NCBI GenBank assembly: GCA_903845055.1
Contig: CAIMWF010000096.1
Location: forward strand, 1 to 32,496
DNA: 32,496 nt
Source: an uncultured Bacteroidales bacterium
GTDB lineage: Bacteria; Bacteroidota; Bacteroidia; Bacteroidales; FEN-979
Direction of reading: 5' to 3'
Below the pieces are notes generated by a model. The model saw only the letters and a program-made list of their open reading frames with translations, searched no databases and was not told the origin of the DNA. Positions 15,941 to 21,707 of this stretch are shown here, piece by piece (positions within the stretch are counted from its first letter, which is position 1; each line of letters opens with the position of its first letter). The position numbers were made by a program, and so were the translations under genes.

Positions 15941-16618
15941 ATGTTTAACCAAATAAAACATATTTTCCTGTCAGCCCTCCTGTGTCCCCTGATCATGCTG
16001 ACTTTTACGTCGTTTTCTCCGCCTTCGTTCCAGATCGGGCTGCTGAAATACGCAGGGGGAGGCGACTGGTATGCAAACCCGACATCACTGCCGAACCTGG
16101 TGAAATTCGCCAACCGCAACCTTTCCACCAACATCAGCGAAGATGTTGCCACAGTGGATGTGGGCAGCCCGGAGATCGCGAATTATCCCTTCCTGCACAT
16201 GACCGGGCACGGCAATGTGGTCTTTTCCGACCAGGAATTGCAGAACCTGCGGAATTACCTCATCGGCGGCGGTTTCCTGCACATCGACGACAATTATGGC
16301 ATGGACAAGTATATCCGTCCTCAGTTGAAACGGCTCTTCCCCGAACTCGAACTGCTCGAACTCCCCTTCGATCACCCGATCTACCACCAGCATTATAATT
16401 TTCGCACCGGGCTTCCCAAGATCCACGAACACGACGGCAAACCGGCCCAGGGTTTCGGACTCGTTTATGAAGGCAGGCTGGTGGTGTTCTACTCCTACGA
16501 ATGCGACCTGGGCGACGGCTGGGAAGACGCGGCGGTTCACGGCGATTCGGAGGCCACAAGGATGAAGGCGCTGCAAATGGGGGCGAATTTGTTGCAATAT
16601 GTGTTTACAACGAAGTAG
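15941..16618 (+). CDS. DUF4159 domain protein
   Basis: This 225-residue exported protein has a signal peptide at about residues 1-28 (FLSALLCPLIMLTFTSFS). The rest is a DUF4159 domain: QIGLLKYAGGGDWYANPTSL, PFLHMTGHGNVVFSDQE, then LRNYLIGGGFLHIDDNYGMD and VFYSYECDLGDGWED. The GGGFLHIDDN segment resembles the ThuA/GATase1-like fold assigned to this family. Its role is unknown. DUF4159 genes usually sit near MoxR/DUF58 loci, but here it lies between rsmE and an Hdr-like operon. The stop TAG is part of an octamer repeat. Confidence 0.9.
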   Translation: MFNQIKHIFLSALLCPLIMLTFTSFSPPSFQIGLLKYAGGGDWYANPTSLPNLVKFANRNLSTNISEDVATVDVGSPEIANYPFLHMTGHGNVVFSDQELQNLRNYLIGGGFLHIDDNYGMDKYIRPQLKRLFPELELLELPFDHPIYHQHYNFRTGLPKIHEHDGKPAQGFGLVYEGRLVVFYSYECDLGDGWEDAAVHGDSEATRMKALQMGANLLQYVFTTK

Positions 16619-16663: not shown

Positions 16664-17377
16664 ATGGGGAAATTGTTTGAGAGGCTTTCGGGGGATGTGC
16701 GGTTTGTGGAGGGGCTGAAGGCCTGCCTTAATTGCGGCACGTGCACGGCCATCTGTCCCGCTGCTGAATTCTACGACTACCAGCCGCGGCAGGTTGTCGA
16801 CATCCTGCAGACCCGCGACGAAAAGAAGATCGAAGCCCTGCTGAAAAGCGAGACCATCTGGTATTGCGGCGAGTGTATGTCGTGCGTAACCAGGTGCCCG
16901 CGGGGCAACGCCCCGGGGCTGCTGATCATGGCCCTCCGGTCGCTTTCGCAGGAGACCGGGTATTTTACCGAGTCGGAGAAAGGTCGTCAGCAACTGACCA
17001 TCAAACGCACCGTGGGCGAGTGGATCCTGAAATACGGTTACTGCCTTTACCCATCGGAGATCCTCCCTGAGACACACCCCGAGCAGGGGCCCATTTGGGA
17101 ATGGGAACACAAGCACCTGGATGAGGTGATGCACCGGCTGGGTGCCAACTACAGGAAGACAGGCCCAGGGATTCTCCGCAGTATTCCGCAGGAGGACCTG
17201 GACGAGGTGAAGCGGATTTTCGACGAGACCGGCGGCACGGAACGGTTCAGCCAGATCGAGGAATTTTCAAAACAAAAGGCCGGTGAAATGGGGATCACCC
17301 TCGGCGGGGGACTTGACAATGATTACATCCGACACATCTATACCACGAACAACGGGGAACACATACGCAAAAAATGA
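16664..17377 (+). CDS. hdrC: HdrC-like iron-sulfur subunit (sHdrC1-like)
   Basis: This 237-residue soluble electron-transfer subunit carries two [4Fe-4S] motifs: C21-C24-C27-C31 (CLNCGTCTAICP) and C68-C71-C74-C78 (CGECMSCVTRCP). A long C-terminal extension follows (about 90-237), including GANYRKTGPGILRSIP and LDEVKRIFDETGG. HdrC normally passes electrons between HdrA and HdrB. It opens a tightly packed operon: its stop overlaps the hdrB ATG by 4 bases (17374-17377). Length and gene order match the first HdrC of sHdr-type clusters better than the short methanogen HdrC. Confidence 0.88.
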   Translation: MGKLFERLSGDVRFVEGLKACLNCGTCTAICPAAEFYDYQPRQVVDILQTRDEKKIEALLKSETIWYCGECMSCVTRCPRGNAPGLLIMALRSLSQETGYFTESEKGRQQLTIKRTVGEWILKYGYCLYPSEILPETHPEQGPIWEWEHKHLDEVMHRLGANYRKTGPGILRSIPQEDLDEVKRIFDETGGTERFSQIEEFSKQKAGEMGITLGGGLDNDYIRHIYTTNNGEHIRKK

Positions 17378-18453
17378 ACATCGGGGGAAAACGGCATATC
17401 TGGAAAGATTACCAGAAGGAGATCGCGGGCGACCGTTTTTTTTACGTACGCAGCTGCGTGCGCCAGAATTTTTTCCCCGGCTCAGAAAAGACCTTCCTGC
17501 GCATCATGAAGGAGGAACTCGGCAAGGATGTATTTGAAAATGCAGCCCACACCACCTGCTCGGGCATCGGCTACCACAGTGATGTGGTGCCCTTCGAAAC
17601 CACCATGACCATGGTGGCCAGGCAGTTCGCCCTGATGACCGAAGCGGGGTATGAGAATTTCACCACCTCCTGCATCACCTCGTTCGGTCTGTACAACGAA
17701 ATACTCGAAACCTGGCACCATTTCCCCGATGTGGAGGCACGCATCCGCGAACACCTTCACCGGGCCACAGGGCGCACCTTCAACAAGCCCGCCAACGTAT
17801 CACACGCCAGCGATGTCATCTTTAAATTCAGGAAGGAGATCGGGGCACCCGGCAACTTCAGGCTGGTCAGCAAAAAAACGGGCAAACCGCTGCAGGTGGT
17901 TGAGCACATCGGGTGCCACTATGCGAAGATGTTCCCCTCAAAGGGGGTCGGGGGCGCCGAATACCCCTATGTGCTTACGGGCATGATCGAAGAATGGGGC
18001 GGCGAGGTGATCGACTACCCCGAAAGAAGGCACTGTTGCGGGTTTGGCTTCCGGCAATACCTGGTGCAGGCGAACCGCGGCTATTCCATCTCCTGCACCA
18101 AAAAGAAATTTGATTCCATGGCACCGTACAAACCAGATTTCATCCTGACGAACTGCCCGGGCTGCCCTATGTTCCTCGACCGGTGGCAATACGCCCTGAG
18201 TGAGATGAAGGGAACCACCTACGGCGAAAACGGGCTTGGAATCCCGGTGCTGACCTATGAAGAGCTGGCAGGCATGATCCTGGGGTATGATCCCTGGGAC
18301 CTTGGATTGCAGGTTCACCAGGTACCGGTTGAACCGCTGCTTGACAAGATCGGCATCCCCTATGATCCGGGTCGCAAATTCCTGACCATGGATGGAAAGC
18401 CGATGGGGCAGCCATTGGCGCCCTCTCATCTTAAATTCTACAAACATGTATAA
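17374..18453 (+). CDS. hdrB: HdrB-like subunit with one intact CCG domain
   Basis: This 359-residue subunit belongs to the heterodisulfide reductase B family. The C-terminal CCG motif is complete: IGCHY, then RRHCCGFGF and TNCPGCPMF, giving the five cysteines that hold a noncubane [4Fe-4S] cluster. The N-terminal copy is degenerate: only C28 (VRSC), C62 (TTCSGIG) and C100 (TSCITSFG) remain, without the CC pair or the CxxC. One noncubane cluster is therefore predicted, not two. Translation is coupled to hdrC upstream by ATGA and to hdrA downstream by an 8-base overlap. The substrate (disulfide, persulfide or quinone-linked thiol) cannot be read from the sequence. Confidence 0.87.
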   Translation: MNIGGKRHIWKDYQKEIAGDRFFYVRSCVRQNFFPGSEKTFLRIMKEELGKDVFENAAHTTCSGIGYHSDVVPFETTMTMVARQFALMTEAGYENFTTSCITSFGLYNEILETWHHFPDVEARIREHLHRATGRTFNKPANVSHASDVIFKFRKEIGAPGNFRLVSKKTGKPLQVVEHIGCHYAKMFPSKGVGGAEYPYVLTGMIEEWGGEVIDYPERRHCCGFGFRQYLVQANRGYSISCTKKKFDSMAPYKPDFILTNCPGCPMFLDRWQYALSEMKGTTYGENGLGIPVLTYEELAGMILGYDPWDLGLQVHQVPVEPLLDKIGIPYDPGRKFLTMDGKPMGQPLAPSHLKFYKHV

Positions 18454-19480
18454 AAATATCATCATCGTCGGCGGCGGGATTGCGGGGATGGCCGCCGCCG
18501 CGGCACTTTCCGAAATAGGCATGGAGGTAACCGTGCTCGAAAGGGAAAAGCTTCCAGGCGGGCATGTCAGAAGCTGGGACCGGCTTTTCCCGACCCTCCG
18601 TGCTGCCAAGGAGGTGCTGGACTTTCTCAATAAAAGTCTCGGCCTGCTAACCGAGATCATCTGCGACATCGAAGTCGGTTCCATCGTACCGACTCCCGGC
18701 GGGTACACCATCCATTGCACCAATGGTGACATCTTCACAACCGGTTGCCTGGTGCTGGCCACGGGTTATGATCTCTTCGACGCGCGGAAAAAGGAGGAAT
18801 ACGGTTTTGGCATCTACGAAAATGTGATCACCTCCGCCGACCTTGAAAAAATCTTCCGTGAAGGCAATCAGGTCACCACCTGCGGGGGGCAAGTTCCCAG
18901 GCGCGTTGGAATCATCCACTGCGTGGGCTCCCGCGACGAAAAAGTGGGTAACATCTATTGTTCCAAGGTTTGCTGTGTTACCGGGGTCAAACAGGCCATC
19001 GAGATCAGGCAGATGCTTCCCGACTGCGAGATCTTTTCCTTTTACATGGATCTCCGCATGTACGACCGCCATTTCGAAGAGCTTTACTTTGAAGCCCAGC
19101 AAAAGTGGAATGTGAATTTTATCCGCGGGCGCCTCTCCGAATGCGCCGAAAACCCGGATCATTCGATCATCCTGAAAACGGAGGATACGCTCACCGGGCA
19201 TCCACTGAAACTGACGGTCGACCTGGTGGTGCTCCTTGTTGGCTTTGTTCCCGGAAGTTCCGCCAGGAAGATCACCGGGAGCCTCGGGTTGCTACAGGGA
19301 ACGGATGGCTTTTTATTGCCGGCCGATGAACACACCGCCGGCAACAGGACCCTGCTCCCCGGGGTTTTTCTTGCAGGGGCGGTGAAAGGCCCTGCCTGCG
19401 TGGTCGATACCATTGCCGATGGAAGGGCGACGGCGGTGGAGGTGTACAGGTATATGAAACATAGCGAGGTAGCGAAATAG
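18446..19480 (+). CDS. hdrA: Short HdrA/QmoA-like FAD protein
   Basis: This 344-residue flavoprotein starts at ATG 18446, just before the FAD-binding Rossmann motif (IIIVGGGIAGMAAAAALSE). An in-frame ATG at 18392 would lie inside hdrB. VLEREKLPGGH continues the FAD site. The HdrA-specific cysteine motif is present: CVGSRDEKVGNIYCSKVCC, followed by VTGVKQA. The C-terminal signature is GPACVVDTIADGRA. There is no ferredoxin domain and no inserted ferredoxin loop, so it is much shorter than methanogen HdrA (about 650 residues) and matches the length of sHdrA or QmoA. It is expected to be the electron-branching or hub subunit. The last residues and stop come from an octamer repeat. Confidence 0.88.
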   Translation: MYKNIIIVGGGIAGMAAAAALSEIGMEVTVLEREKLPGGHVRSWDRLFPTLRAAKEVLDFLNKSLGLLTEIICDIEVGSIVPTPGGYTIHCTNGDIFTTGCLVLATGYDLFDARKKEEYGFGIYENVITSADLEKIFREGNQVTTCGGQVPRRVGIIHCVGSRDEKVGNIYCSKVCCVTGVKQAIEIRQMLPDCEIFSFYMDLRMYDRHFEELYFEAQQKWNVNFIRGRLSECAENPDHSIILKTEDTLTGHPLKLTVDLVVLLVGFVPGSSARKITGSLGLLQGTDGFLLPADEHTAGNRTLLPGVFLAGAVKGPACVVDTIADGRATAVEVYRYMKHSEVAK

Positions 19481-19490
19481 CGAAAAATCG
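19459..19490. repeat. Octamer tandem repeat over the hdrA stop
   Basis: The units are ACATAGCG, AGGTAGCG, AAATAGCG and AAAAATCG. The hdrA stop TAG (19478-19480) lies in the third unit, and the next gene starts at 19495. It is the same octamer family as the two upstream arrays. Confidence 0.8.
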
Positions 19491-19494
19491 GAAA

Positions 19495-19827
19495 ATGATA
19501 CATTTCGGGTATGGTGTGATGGCGGATGCGACGACGGATTATGACCGGAACGACAGGCGTATTGCCGAATACCTGCTGGAGCATGAGCCTTCGGTGAACC
19601 TGTGCATCGGGTGCGGAAGTTGTACGGCTGCCTGTTCAACGGGCCGGATGGTCGAATTCAACATCCGCAGGCTGCATACCCTGATCCGCAGGGGTGAAAC
19701 CCTGAAATTGAAGAAAGAAATCATGAAGTGCATGTTCTGCGGCAAATGCCAGCTGGTTTGTCCCAGGGGCGTAAACCTGCGCAATGTAATACTTACCATC
19801 AACCGTGCCCTTGAGCAAACAGGATGA
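19495..19827 (+). CDS. Small HdrC-like ferredoxin subunit (sHdrC2-like)
   Basis: This 110-residue protein has two [4Fe-4S] binding motifs: C37-C40-C43-C47 (CIGCGSCTAAC) and C79-C82-C85-C89 (CMFCGKCQLVCP). This is the compact HdrC form without extension. It follows hdrA after 14 bases and overlaps the membrane subunit by ATGA (19824-19827), so the two are translationally coupled and probably interact. Its likely role is wiring the soluble HdrA/B/C module to the membrane protein. Confidence 0.88.
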   Translation: MIHFGYGVMADATTDYDRNDRRIAEYLLEHEPSVNLCIGCGSCTAACSTGRMVEFNIRRLHTLIRRGETLKLKKEIMKCMFCGKCQLVCPRGVNLRNVILTINRALEQTG

Positions 19828-21707
19828 TCAATTTTAACCTTTTCGTTCTCCCCTTTTTCCTGGGACTGATCTACGTGGTGTTCGCCATCGGGCGAAGCTG
19901 GTACCGCTGGATCAGGTCGTTGCCGGCAAGTGACAAGGTCAGGCTGACCACCATGTTCCGCCAACCACGCCAGGTGCTCCTGGCCCTCGGCGAGGTCTGC
20001 ACGGAGGCACTTCTTCACCGGCGGATGTGGAAACGAAATCCCCTGCTGGGCTACATGCACATGAGCTTCGCCCTGGGCTGGTTCCTGCTCATTGTTTGCG
20101 GCAACCTCGAAAGCCGCTATTACAGCGGGTCGCACCTTAACGCACCCTATTACCCGATCTTCCTGAAGTTTTTCATCCATGACCGTTTGGTCATCTTTTT
20201 CGAGGTCTTTTCGGTGCCCGGTTTTTTCCGGTTCCTGATGGACCTTCTGCTCCTGTTCGTCTTAAGCGGGTTGGTGCTGGCCATGGTCAAACGCAAAAGA
20301 TCAAAATGGTTCGGGCTGAAACGGACCGCTGAATTTCAGCTCACCGATGTCGTTTCGCTGACCTGCCTGTGGCTGATTTTTCCCATGCGGTTGCTGGCCG
20401 AGAGTTTTACAGCGGGATATTACGGAAGCGGCGGCGGCTTTCTCACCCAGTCGCTTGGGAACCTTGTGATGACGGTCATGCCCTTTACCTCCGAATACAT
20501 TCCCTACTCGATGTGGTGGGGATATTCGCTGGTGCTGGGGCTGTTTTTCATTACCCTGCCCTATACGCGGTACATGCATATCCCAACCGAGGTTCTGCTG
20601 ATCTTTTTCCGTCATGCCGGCATCCGGCCGAAGAAATGGTATTCCGGATTCTCCGATGCGGAGGTGCTGGCATGTTCGCGCTGCGGCGTATGCATCGACG
20701 TATGCCCGCTCAATGAGGCCGGGATCGTTGATGCCCAGGCAGTCTATTTTATACGGGGCTTGCGCGACCAATATGTGCCGGAATCCGTTTCACGCATGTG
20801 CCTGTTGTGCGGGCGCTGCCAGGAGGCTTGCCCGGTGGGCCTCCACACCGATTCGCTCCGGCTGATCAAACGCAGGGAACTGGTGTCGGGACAGGAAACG
20901 GACTTCTCCTGGCTTGCCAGCGCCGCCCCGGGACCGGTTGCCCTGGAAACCCGCCACATCCCGCGGCAGGCTGAAGTGGCCTATTTTGCCGGGTGCATGT
21001 CGCACCTCACCCCCGCTGTTATCCGGTCGATGCGCAGAATCATGGACCAGGCCGGGATCAACTGGGTACAACTGGATGAAGACGGGAGCGTTTGCTGCGG
21101 GCGGCCGCTGATGGTCGCCGGCAAGGATACACAAGCCAGCCAGCTTATGGAATTCAATAAAAACCAGGTGCTTGCGACCGGTGCAAGACTGCTGGTCACC
21201 TCCTGCCCCATCTGTTACCGGGTATTCCGTGAAGACTACAACCTGCCTGTCAGGATACAGCATCATTCGCAGTTCATCCTTGACCTCGTGAAAACGGGAA
21301 AAATACCGCTGCAGGCACATTTCAGAAAAGTTGCCTATCACGATCCCTGCGACCTGGGTCGCGGCTCGGGAGTTTATGAAGCACCACGGGAATTGCTGAC
21401 AAAAATCGCTGACCTTGTTGAGGTGGGACAGGACGCCCACAACGCACAGTGCTGCGGCGGAAGCCTGGGAATCTTCACGGCAACGCAGGAGCAGCGGAAC
21501 GATATGGCCGCCGCTGCCCTGGATGTGCTTCTTGAAAATCAGCCTGAAGTGCTGGCAACCGCGTGCCCGCTGTGTAAAAAGACCTTTGCAAAACAATCAC
21601 CGGTCCCGGTGAAGGATATCGCCGAGCTGGTGTGCGATGCGATGCCTAACCCTGTTTACTGCTCCGCTTCCGGTCAATCTCGTCGAGCAGGATCTTACGC
21701 AACCTGA
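19824..21707 (+). CDS. Membrane-bound HdrDE/EMO-like iron-sulfur oxidoreductase
   Basis: This 627-residue protein fuses three modules. The N-terminal membrane domain (about 1-260) has roughly five helices, including GYMHMSFALGWFLLIV and YTRYMHIPTEVLL, whose histidines are candidate heme b ligands as in NarI/HdrE. Next is a 2x[4Fe-4S] domain (CSRCGVCIDVCP, CLLCGRCQEACP). Last are two CCG domains: FAGCMSH, SVCCGRP and SCPICYR; then DPCDLGRG, AQCCGGSLG and ACPLCKK. This layout is that of EMO/EtfD, HmeD-type and TmcB-like quinone oxidoreductases, so it probably exchanges electrons between the Hdr module and menaquinone. Its last 20 codons overlap typA on the other strand. Confidence 0.9.
   Translation: MINFNLFVLPFFLGLIYVVFAIGRSWYRWIRSLPASDKVRLTTMFRQPRQVLLALGEVCTEALLHRRMWKRNPLLGYMHMSFALGWFLLIVCGNLESRYYSGSHLNAPYYPIFLKFFIHDRLVIFFEVFSVPGFFRFLMDLLLLFVLSGLVLAMVKRKRSKWFGLKRTAEFQLTDVVSLTCLWLIFPMRLLAESFTAGYYGSGGGFLTQSLGNLVMTVMPFTSEYIPYSMWWGYSLVLGLFFITLPYTRYMHIPTEVLLIFFRHAGIRPKKWYSGFSDAEVLACSRCGVCIDVCPLNEAGIVDAQAVYFIRGLRDQYVPESVSRMCLLCGRCQEACPVGLHTDSLRLIKRRELVSGQETDFSWLASAAPGPVALETRHIPRQAEVAYFAGCMSHLTPAVIRSMRRIMDQAGINWVQLDEDGSVCCGRPLMVAGKDTQASQLMEFNKNQVLATGARLLVTSCPICYRVFREDYNLPVRIQHHSQFILDLVKTGKIPLQAHFRKVAYHDPCDLGRGSGVYEAPRELLTKIADLVEVGQDAHNAQCCGGSLGIFTATQEQRNDMAAAALDVLLENQPEVLATACPLCKKTFAKQSPVPVKDIAELVCDAMPNPVYCSASGQSRRAGSYAT

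Follow-up and report, generated by a model that had tools for sequence, protein, structure and literature searches.

What is built by a run of five genes related to heterodisulfide reductase (Hdr) in an uncultured Bacteroidales bacterium, and which partners does it connect? The genes lie in a 32,496-nucleotide stretch of DNA (NCBI GenBank assembly GCA_903845055.1, contig CAIMWF010000096.1, positions 1 to 32,496 of the forward strand; lineage FEN-979), called the window here, and encode in order an HdrC1-like protein (C1), HdrB (B), a short HdrA (A), a small HdrC2-like ferredoxin (C2) and a membrane protein (M). A preliminary description of the sequence had read them as a core like that of sHdr, the sulfur-oxidising Hdr system, in which the Hyp gene was lost and the soluble HdrB2 was replaced by a membrane quinone module. 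In the analysis reported here, the products of this gene set, which is conserved in many anaerobic Bacteroidales, appear to form an iron-sulfur enzyme complex not described before, one that would connect thiol/disulfide chemistry with the membrane quinone pool. The preliminary description had left room for an earlier account of the same five genes; no description of the C1-B-A-C2-M set or of its function was found in the literature, among the matches listed. The set is absent from the excerpts, the form in which papers are also cited below, of PMC12345210, PMC11582611, PMC6067878, PMC8002359, PMC4053972, PMC7382037, PMC6085437, PMC10266427, PMC10477309 and PMC13083937.

Conservation of the gene order was followed with HdrB. 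Named genomes were scanned with this protein, and 80 of 207 relatives were kept as loci, of which 68 were eligible for a gene-order test (700 bases upstream and 3300 downstream) and 12 were too short. The order C1-B-A-C2-M, on one strand and with gaps allowed, was found in 68 of the 68 eligible loci, an association far beyond chance, and the five genes are one unit. According to the record titles, 79 of the 80 loci belong to Bacteroidota, including Prolixibacteraceae, Lentimicrobiaceae, Marinifilum, Rikenellaceae and Tidjanibacter, and the sample sources named in such titles include Lac Pavin, fen, groundwater and chicken. A locus titled Alphaproteobacteria (L048) holds the full unit with an HdrB 82% identical, and is probably a mislabelled metagenome-assembled genome. 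For the alignments, rows were kept by length and identity, leaving 71 of 77 open reading frame matches for C1, 75 of 78 for B, 71 of 77 for A, 59 of 62 for C2 and 66 of 73 for M.

Within the order of the window, HdrB was matched in 92 of 295 genomes. HdrB and M occur together in 89 of the 295, HdrB only in 3, an M-like fragment only in 1 and neither in 202, so that the unit is carried by almost one in three of the genomes sampled in the order. The M counts come from a search in which at most four candidates were scored per genome; 98 genomes matched at E 1e-40 and 89 at E <1e-100. Among 395 genomes of the phylum, apart from the own genome, only two distant relatives had HdrB at E 1e-20, and the best match to M outside the own genome had an E value of 2.5e-53, compared with 1.2e-279 for M itself.

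The self-contained unit proposed in the preliminary description agrees with the neighbourhoods, in which no sixth gene family was found in more than 17 of the 80 loci by simple open reading frame calls that may miss genes under longer antisense frames. A DUF4159 family lies near 17 other loci and adjoins C1 in 15 of them, and a glutathione-peroxidase-like protein (166 bits, cut-off 270) lies near 8; both are lineage-specific neighbours. In the window, a DUF4159 gene (15941-16618) stands directly upstream of the unit.

M looks like a natural HdrE-HdrD fusion, judged by its sequence and its predicted model. The model (predicted local distance difference test, pLDDT, 88; predicted template-modelling score, pTM, 0.85) begins with five long helices, followed by two [4Fe-4S] motifs and two CCG domains, and Pfam gives the same cluster and CCG domains, as the preliminary description had stated. 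The best Foldseek match is EtfD of M. smegmatis (9ojn, E 1.8e-20, template-modelling (TM) score 0.65 over the query); most of the next matches are HdrB chains. EtfD is non-catalytic, with Thr539 in place of an Hdr cysteine and His583 capping the second cluster; His78 and His241 bind its heme b, and the catalytic bridging cysteines of HdrB are Cys81 and Cys234 (PMC13083937). In pairwise alignment, Thr539 and His583 fall on Cys425 and Ile463 of M, which are present in 67 of 67 M rows, so both EtfD-specific residues are missing. The counterparts of Cys81, Cys234, His78 and His241, assigned by motif or alignment as C464, C584, H79 and H252, are likewise present in 67/67 rows; in the first CCG site, C461 is present in 66/67 and the other ligands in 67/67.

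The two diagnostic positions were also read in proteins that resemble EtfD. In 14 EtfD-like proteins, the loci returned among 46 other phylum genomes with a match, position 425 is Thr in nine, Asn in three, Ser in one and Cys in one, and position 463 is His in all 14. EtfD of the own genome has Thr and His at these positions, and the EMO-like membrane proteins of two loci from another Bacteroidota family (L124 and L125) have Ala and His. Eight of the nine weaker M matches in the order (E 1e-40 but not <1e-100) carry His at 463 like EtfD. The ninth is the M-like fragment (G430, L205), 44-49% identical, in two frames at a contig end, which keeps Cys425 and Ile463 in a genome with no HdrB match. 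Two complete CCG motifs were found in the window's M and in 65 of 66 relatives; among twelve comparison proteins, three soluble HdrB-type proteins have two, and none was found in B3-like or EMO-like proteins. In the membrane domain, H79 and H252 are common to EtfD-like rows (His in 12/14 and 13/14), F241 is also shared with EtfD, and H65 is family-specific (67/67 M rows). The comparison of the heme and quinone site is limited to H79, H252 and F241, since no residue of the EtfD-like rows corresponds to W86 of M.

The EtfD-like fold combined with the Hdr cysteine set suggests that M is an EtfD fold with HdrD active-site residues. Thus, of the preliminary assignment of the last gene to the EMO/EtfD type, the layout and fold match hold, while the equation with EtfD does not, the CCG residues being those of a catalytic Hdr. 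M gives only 29.5 bits with the HdrB model and is therefore probably not HdrB2 with an added anchor. The supposed replacement of HdrB2 is retained in the sense that M stands in the place of HdrB2 in the cyanobacterial relative discussed below. If this reading is right, M would be a bacterial membrane-bound protein of the HdrED type that has the residues needed for catalysis and is associated with an HdrCBA core, and the pair Cys425 and Ile463 would offer a simple residue test of whether such a protein may be active on disulfides or is an EtfD wire. At their 3' ends, M and the convergent typA share 62 bases (window 21646-21707), and the C-terminal tail of M in this overlap has low confidence in the predicted model.

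Two sHdr types are distinguished by gene content, type I as C1B1AHC2B2 and type II as C1B1AHB3 with etfAB (PMC11582611). HdrB of the window resembles the B1 protein of these systems in its N-terminal CCG site, which has three of the five cysteines of classical HdrB; the others are Thr/Ser and Ser in 76/76 family rows, with serine at the bridging-cysteine position. The same three-cysteine site was found in 8/8 rows of paralogues (the HdrB of the C1-HdrB pairs described below), in cyanobacterial B1, in two type II-like sHdrB1 rows and in an Acidithiobacillus plasmid protein. The C-terminal CCG site is complete in the window and in 75/75 family rows, unlike sHdrB1-type rows, from which one cysteine is gone. 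The predicted HdrB model (pLDDT 83.8) has as its closest PDB fold HdrB 5odc_B (TM 0.85 over the target). Trees of HdrB (26 family rows) and C1 (20) place the family on the sHdr side, apart from classical Hdr, with very long branches between the groups, and for this reason clade claims were drawn from the HdrA tree only.

Second copies of HdrB were also observed. Twelve genomes have two matches, and the eight that were read (L126, L128, L130, L132, L134, L135, L137 and L139) hold a C1-HdrB pair, whose HdrB is 63-68% identical and has no HdrA or M directly beside it. Neighbours of the pairs include dinitrogenase-cofactor-like proteins, MrpORP-like ferredoxin ATPases, CGGC, C_GCAxxG_C_C and CobO-like proteins, and methionine-gamma-lyase-like and CoA-disulfide-reductase-like proteins. 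On Acidithiobacillus ferrooxidans plasmids (L154:8749-10089), the sHdrB1-type protein stands alone, with GcvH-like, hemerythrin, globin and Hcp genes near.

The short HdrA can be aligned from end to end both to sHdrA 6tjr (205.9 bits) and to the core of methanogen HdrA (221.9 bits), the two matches being of similar strength, while an sHdr-type HdrA from the same phylum (L125) favours 6tjr (320.7 versus 209.8 bits). In the HdrA tree (20 family rows), three groups were obtained, namely the family with a protein of Picosynechococcus sp. PCC 7003 (support 100/99), sHdr (100/97, three rows only, with 6tjr on a long branch) and classical HdrA (96/92); the family without PCC 7003 is poorly supported (56/49). 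The FAD (flavin adenine dinucleotide) domain of the preliminary description was found, and its CGSR wording is to be corrected, the actual motif being CVGSR...YCSKVCC. The four cluster cysteines and K182, which matches Lys409 of HdrA, are kept in 72/72 rows. No ferredoxin domain was found in the short HdrA by Pfam, and it is without the parts beyond the core of the second HdrA of the own genome (657 amino acids). An in-frame ATG upstream, at 18392, would give an alternative start and a protein of 362 amino acids.

The positions of all features are collected in Table 1. The five open reading frames have the lengths given in the preliminary description, all on the plus strand, and the tight linkage by overlaps or gaps of 4 to 14 bases was confirmed, with junctions of -4 (C1/B), -8 (B/A), +14 (A/C2) and -4 (C2/M) bases. 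Pfam found Fer4 pairs in C1, C2 and M, one CCG domain in HdrB and two in M, and FAD/NAD-binding families in HdrA. The eight cluster cysteines of C1 are kept in 72/72 rows and the eight of C2 in 60/60. The Hdr models of NCBIfam fit the soluble subunits well, yet under their cut-offs; in the scan of the five proteins, no Hdr, Qmo or Dsr model reached its curated cut-off.

Table 1. Features of the five-gene unit, in window positions (aa, amino acids)
Feature	Position	Strand	Basis
HdrC1-like, 237 aa, two [4Fe-4S] motifs	16664-17377	+	Open reading frame, Pfam Fer4_8, NCBIfam HdrC below cut-off
HdrB (B1-type), 359 aa	17374-18453	+	Pfam CCG (one), predicted fold
HdrB N-terminal CCG site, three cysteines C28, C62, C100	17455-17682	+	Family rows
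HdrB C-terminal CCG site, complete five-cysteine motif C181-CC221/222-C261xxC264	17914-18165	+	Motif search
Short HdrA, 344 aa, FAD domain	18446-19480	+	Pfam FAD/NAD-binding families, alignment, tree
HdrA [4Fe-4S] ligands C159, C172, C176, C177	18920-18976	+	72/72 family rows
HdrC2-like small ferredoxin, 110 aa, two [4Fe-4S] motifs	19495-19827	+	Pfam Fer4_9
M, HdrE-HdrD-like membrane protein, 627 aa	19824-21707	+	Open reading frame, predicted model, Foldseek
M membrane domain, five long helices, H79, H252, H65	19839-20615	+	Model, family rows
M two [4Fe-4S] motifs (C284-C336)	20673-20831	+	Pfam Fer4_7; 67/67 rows
M first CCG site, complete; CPIC versus CPHC of EtfD	20994-21215	+	Motif search, alignment
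M second CCG site, complete	21348-21575	+	Motif search, alignment

With moderate confidence, drawn from sequences and predicted models, the unit is taken to be a membrane-bound thiol/disulfide:menaquinone oxidoreductase with Hdr-type sites in both HdrB and M. In such a single Hdr-superfamily complex, the soluble HdrCBA core would be docked on the fused HdrED, and electrons would be exchanged between a cytoplasmic thiol/disulfide (or persulfide) and the menaquinone pool. HdrB would take the substrate at its single intact non-cubane cluster site, and electrons could pass from HdrB through C1, the FAD and [4Fe-4S] cluster of HdrA, and C2 to M, and there by way of heme to menaquinone. M would itself hold two cubane clusters, heme b, a quinone site and its own complete twin-CCG active site of the HdrD type. 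Common thiol/disulfide couples have potentials below menaquinone, so that flow from thiols to menaquinone would be the likelier direction, and the question raised is which thiol these bacteria couple to menaquinone. In a rather unlikely extension, the unit would represent a new class of respiratory complex, in which an Hdr core with one non-cubane site sits on an HdrED fusion with two more and the HdrA flavin couples two different thiol/disulfide reactions with one another and with menaquinone, possibly by quinone-linked confurcation. If this were true, many anaerobic Bacteroidales would conserve energy from a small thiol or persulfide cofactor.

Some observations weigh against the oxidoreductase with sites in HdrB and M. 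M was not found in 3 of the 92 genomes with HdrB, the gene neighbourhoods of the 80 loci offer no substrate hint, and the closest solved fold of M is EtfD, a pure electron conduit. The best NCBIfam match of M is TfrB (108 bits), as it is for the EtfD piece of the own genome (119 bits), so that these models do not separate the two. In an alternative reading, M would be only an EtfD-like electron wire, with HdrB as the sole catalytic site and its electrons passing via M to menaquinone. Besides the Foldseek match, this is consistent with the shared layout of M and the L124 and L125 EMO-like proteins (570-575 aligned columns at 22-23% identity) and with the Cys at 425 in 1 of the 14 EtfD-like proteins. 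It is nevertheless unlikely, since M has Hdr cysteines in both CCG sites and is without the EtfD-specific residues in 67/67 rows, while His463 is present in 14/14 EtfD-like phylum proteins and in all the weaker order matches but the M-like fragment. In another alternative, the complex would bifurcate or confurcate electrons at a flavin, with HdrA dividing them between a low-potential carrier on one side and the disulfide sites or quinone on the other; the invariant [4Fe-4S] cysteines and K182 of HdrA would fit this. The truncation of HdrA relative to the 657-residue protein, its lack of a Pfam ferredoxin domain, and the absence of MvhD, Flx, Etf or hydrogenase genes among the five make this quite improbable.

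Oxidation of sulfane sulfur to sulfite in the cytoplasm by a reduced sHdr, close to what the preliminary description had proposed, is suggested by the sHdrB1-type N-terminal site of HdrB, by the long-branched trees that put HdrB and C1 on the sHdr side, and by a genome in which a sulfide quinone reductase (SQR), DsrE2 and a DsrC-like protein share another operon and DsrE gives a single weak match (25.9 bits against 22.7). However, neither sHdr type is represented by its gene set. For type I there is no H gene and no separate B2, with M instead, and for type II the cluster lacks H, B3 and etfAB; the etfAB genes of the genome lie on contigs C31 and C72. LbpA, the lipoate-binding protein of sHdr with two conserved cysteines (PMC6067878), was not found among the three GCV_H proteins of the 95% complete assembly, of which one is cysteine-free and the other two, encoded beside NrfD, are large fusions whose GCV_H domains contain none. 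A TusA search of the own genome gave no match, and DsrE2 is not associated with HdrB across the 295 genomes (45/92 with HdrB versus 88/203 without, p 0.38; Fisher tests here and below ignore kinship). HdrA groups with the cyanobacterial protein, apart from both sHdrA and classical HdrA. The reduced sHdr is thus hardly likely; what stands of the preliminary sHdr-like core is the B1-type HdrB and the missing Hyp gene. A DsrMK-like role, in which M and HdrB act on a protein disulfide or trisulfide of the DsrC type, could draw on the DsrC-family gene of the own genome and on DsrC being somewhat commoner with HdrB (39/92 versus 55/203, p 0.011, a weak association). It is judged very improbable, because 53 of the 92 genomes with HdrB have no DsrC match, the DsrC-like protein of the own genome has a single cysteine, and the DsrK model, whose cut-off is 400, gives M 57 bits.

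Sulfur trafficking was considered as a partner of the cluster and set aside, as the DsrC and DsrE2 counts and the missing TusA match do not explain the cluster. HdrB is present in 13 of 32 genomes with high-scoring DsrC and in 26 of 62 with only lower-scoring DsrC. The SQR operon of the own genome (L187, contig C155) encodes a type III SQR (626 bits against 525 with the selenoprotein-subtype NCBIfam model), a 227-residue protein with no Pfam match, the DsrC-like protein, DsrE2 and a class-V aminotransferase; in the order, DsrC and DsrE2 matches are repeatedly found next to each other. With this operon, the genome probably handles sulfide. Elsewhere in the genome (L149, contig C163), an NrfD-type membrane operon encodes two proteins in which a GcvH-like, lipoyl-type domain is fused to an unrelated N-terminal part.

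Among known systems, Qmo, Dsr and Tmc were compared with the unit by family models only. QmoABC consists of the HdrA-like QmoA and QmoB and of QmoC, an HdrC with a membrane domain; the QmoC model gives 50.7 bits on C1, and for DsrMKJOP the DsrK score on M was given above, each far under its cut-off (300 for QmoC). Classical HdrABC shares the HdrA core and the HdrB fold with the unit, but the HdrA of the window is half as long, its HdrB has one complete CCG site and not two, and the proteins fall into separate tree groups. The own genome has a separate HdrCBA cluster of the classical type (L121), which encodes the long HdrA.

With sHdr, the Bacteroidales cluster shares the C1-B1-A core order and the sHdrB1-type N-terminal CCG site, but Hyp, LbpA and etfAB of sHdr are not in the cluster, and its HdrA forms a separate clade. 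The type II-like loci L124 and L125, from a Bacteroidota family outside the class of the window, also have an EMO-like membrane protein (679 and 701 amino acids), in which the complete CCG sites kept in M are lost. These loci further encode C1-B-A, a 428-residue protein and etfBA (by Pfam), with a DsrE-like gene in the vicinity and a GCV_H protein that has LbpA-like cysteines and is called GcvH by NCBIfam (124.9 bits against 117); an H gene was not identified in them.

EtfD and EMO proteins resemble M in domain layout, overall fold, H79, H252 and F241. They differ in that the catalysis-blocking Thr539 and His583 are missing in M and in that M is not beside etfAB. In the own genome, an operon of etfBA, a split EtfD-like gene and acyl-CoA dehydrogenase was observed (L122).

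The nearest relative found outside Bacteroidales, in plasmid searches that yielded three organisms, is on plasmid NZ_CP016476.1 of Picosynechococcus sp. PCC 7003 (L153). The two clusters are alike in the C1-B1-A order, in HdrB (40.6% identical, with a three-cysteine N-terminal and a complete C-terminal CCG site) and in HdrA (43.1%, same clade). The cyanobacterial cluster differs in ending in a soluble C2 (203 amino acids), a soluble twin-CCG HdrB2 (290) and a 428-residue SQR-like flavoprotein (83 bits with SQR, its best NCBIfam model, cut-off 525), and not in a small C2 and M. With one complete CCG site in B1 and two in B2, it has the same 1+2 set as HdrB and M. No glycine-cleavage-H gene is listed within 12 kb in its gene table, which is incomplete, and hdrA2B2C2 has been reported in a cyanobacterium (PMC8002359). 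The two layouts suggest that, in two lineages, this core is combined with a likely quinone module and a twin-CCG protein by means of different proteins.

HdrDE is known from methanogens such as Methanosarcina barkeri, and coenzyme M (CoM) and coenzyme B (CoB) are not expected in these Bacteroidales. EtfD has been likened to HdrDE (PMC13083937). By sequence and model, M shares with HdrDE a heme-b membrane domain, two [4Fe-4S] clusters and twin complete CCG sites with both bridging cysteines; it differs in being one fused chain, bacterial, and encoded with an HdrCBA core. The unit thus connects sHdr, EtfD and the HdrDE of methanogens, which are usually handled separately.

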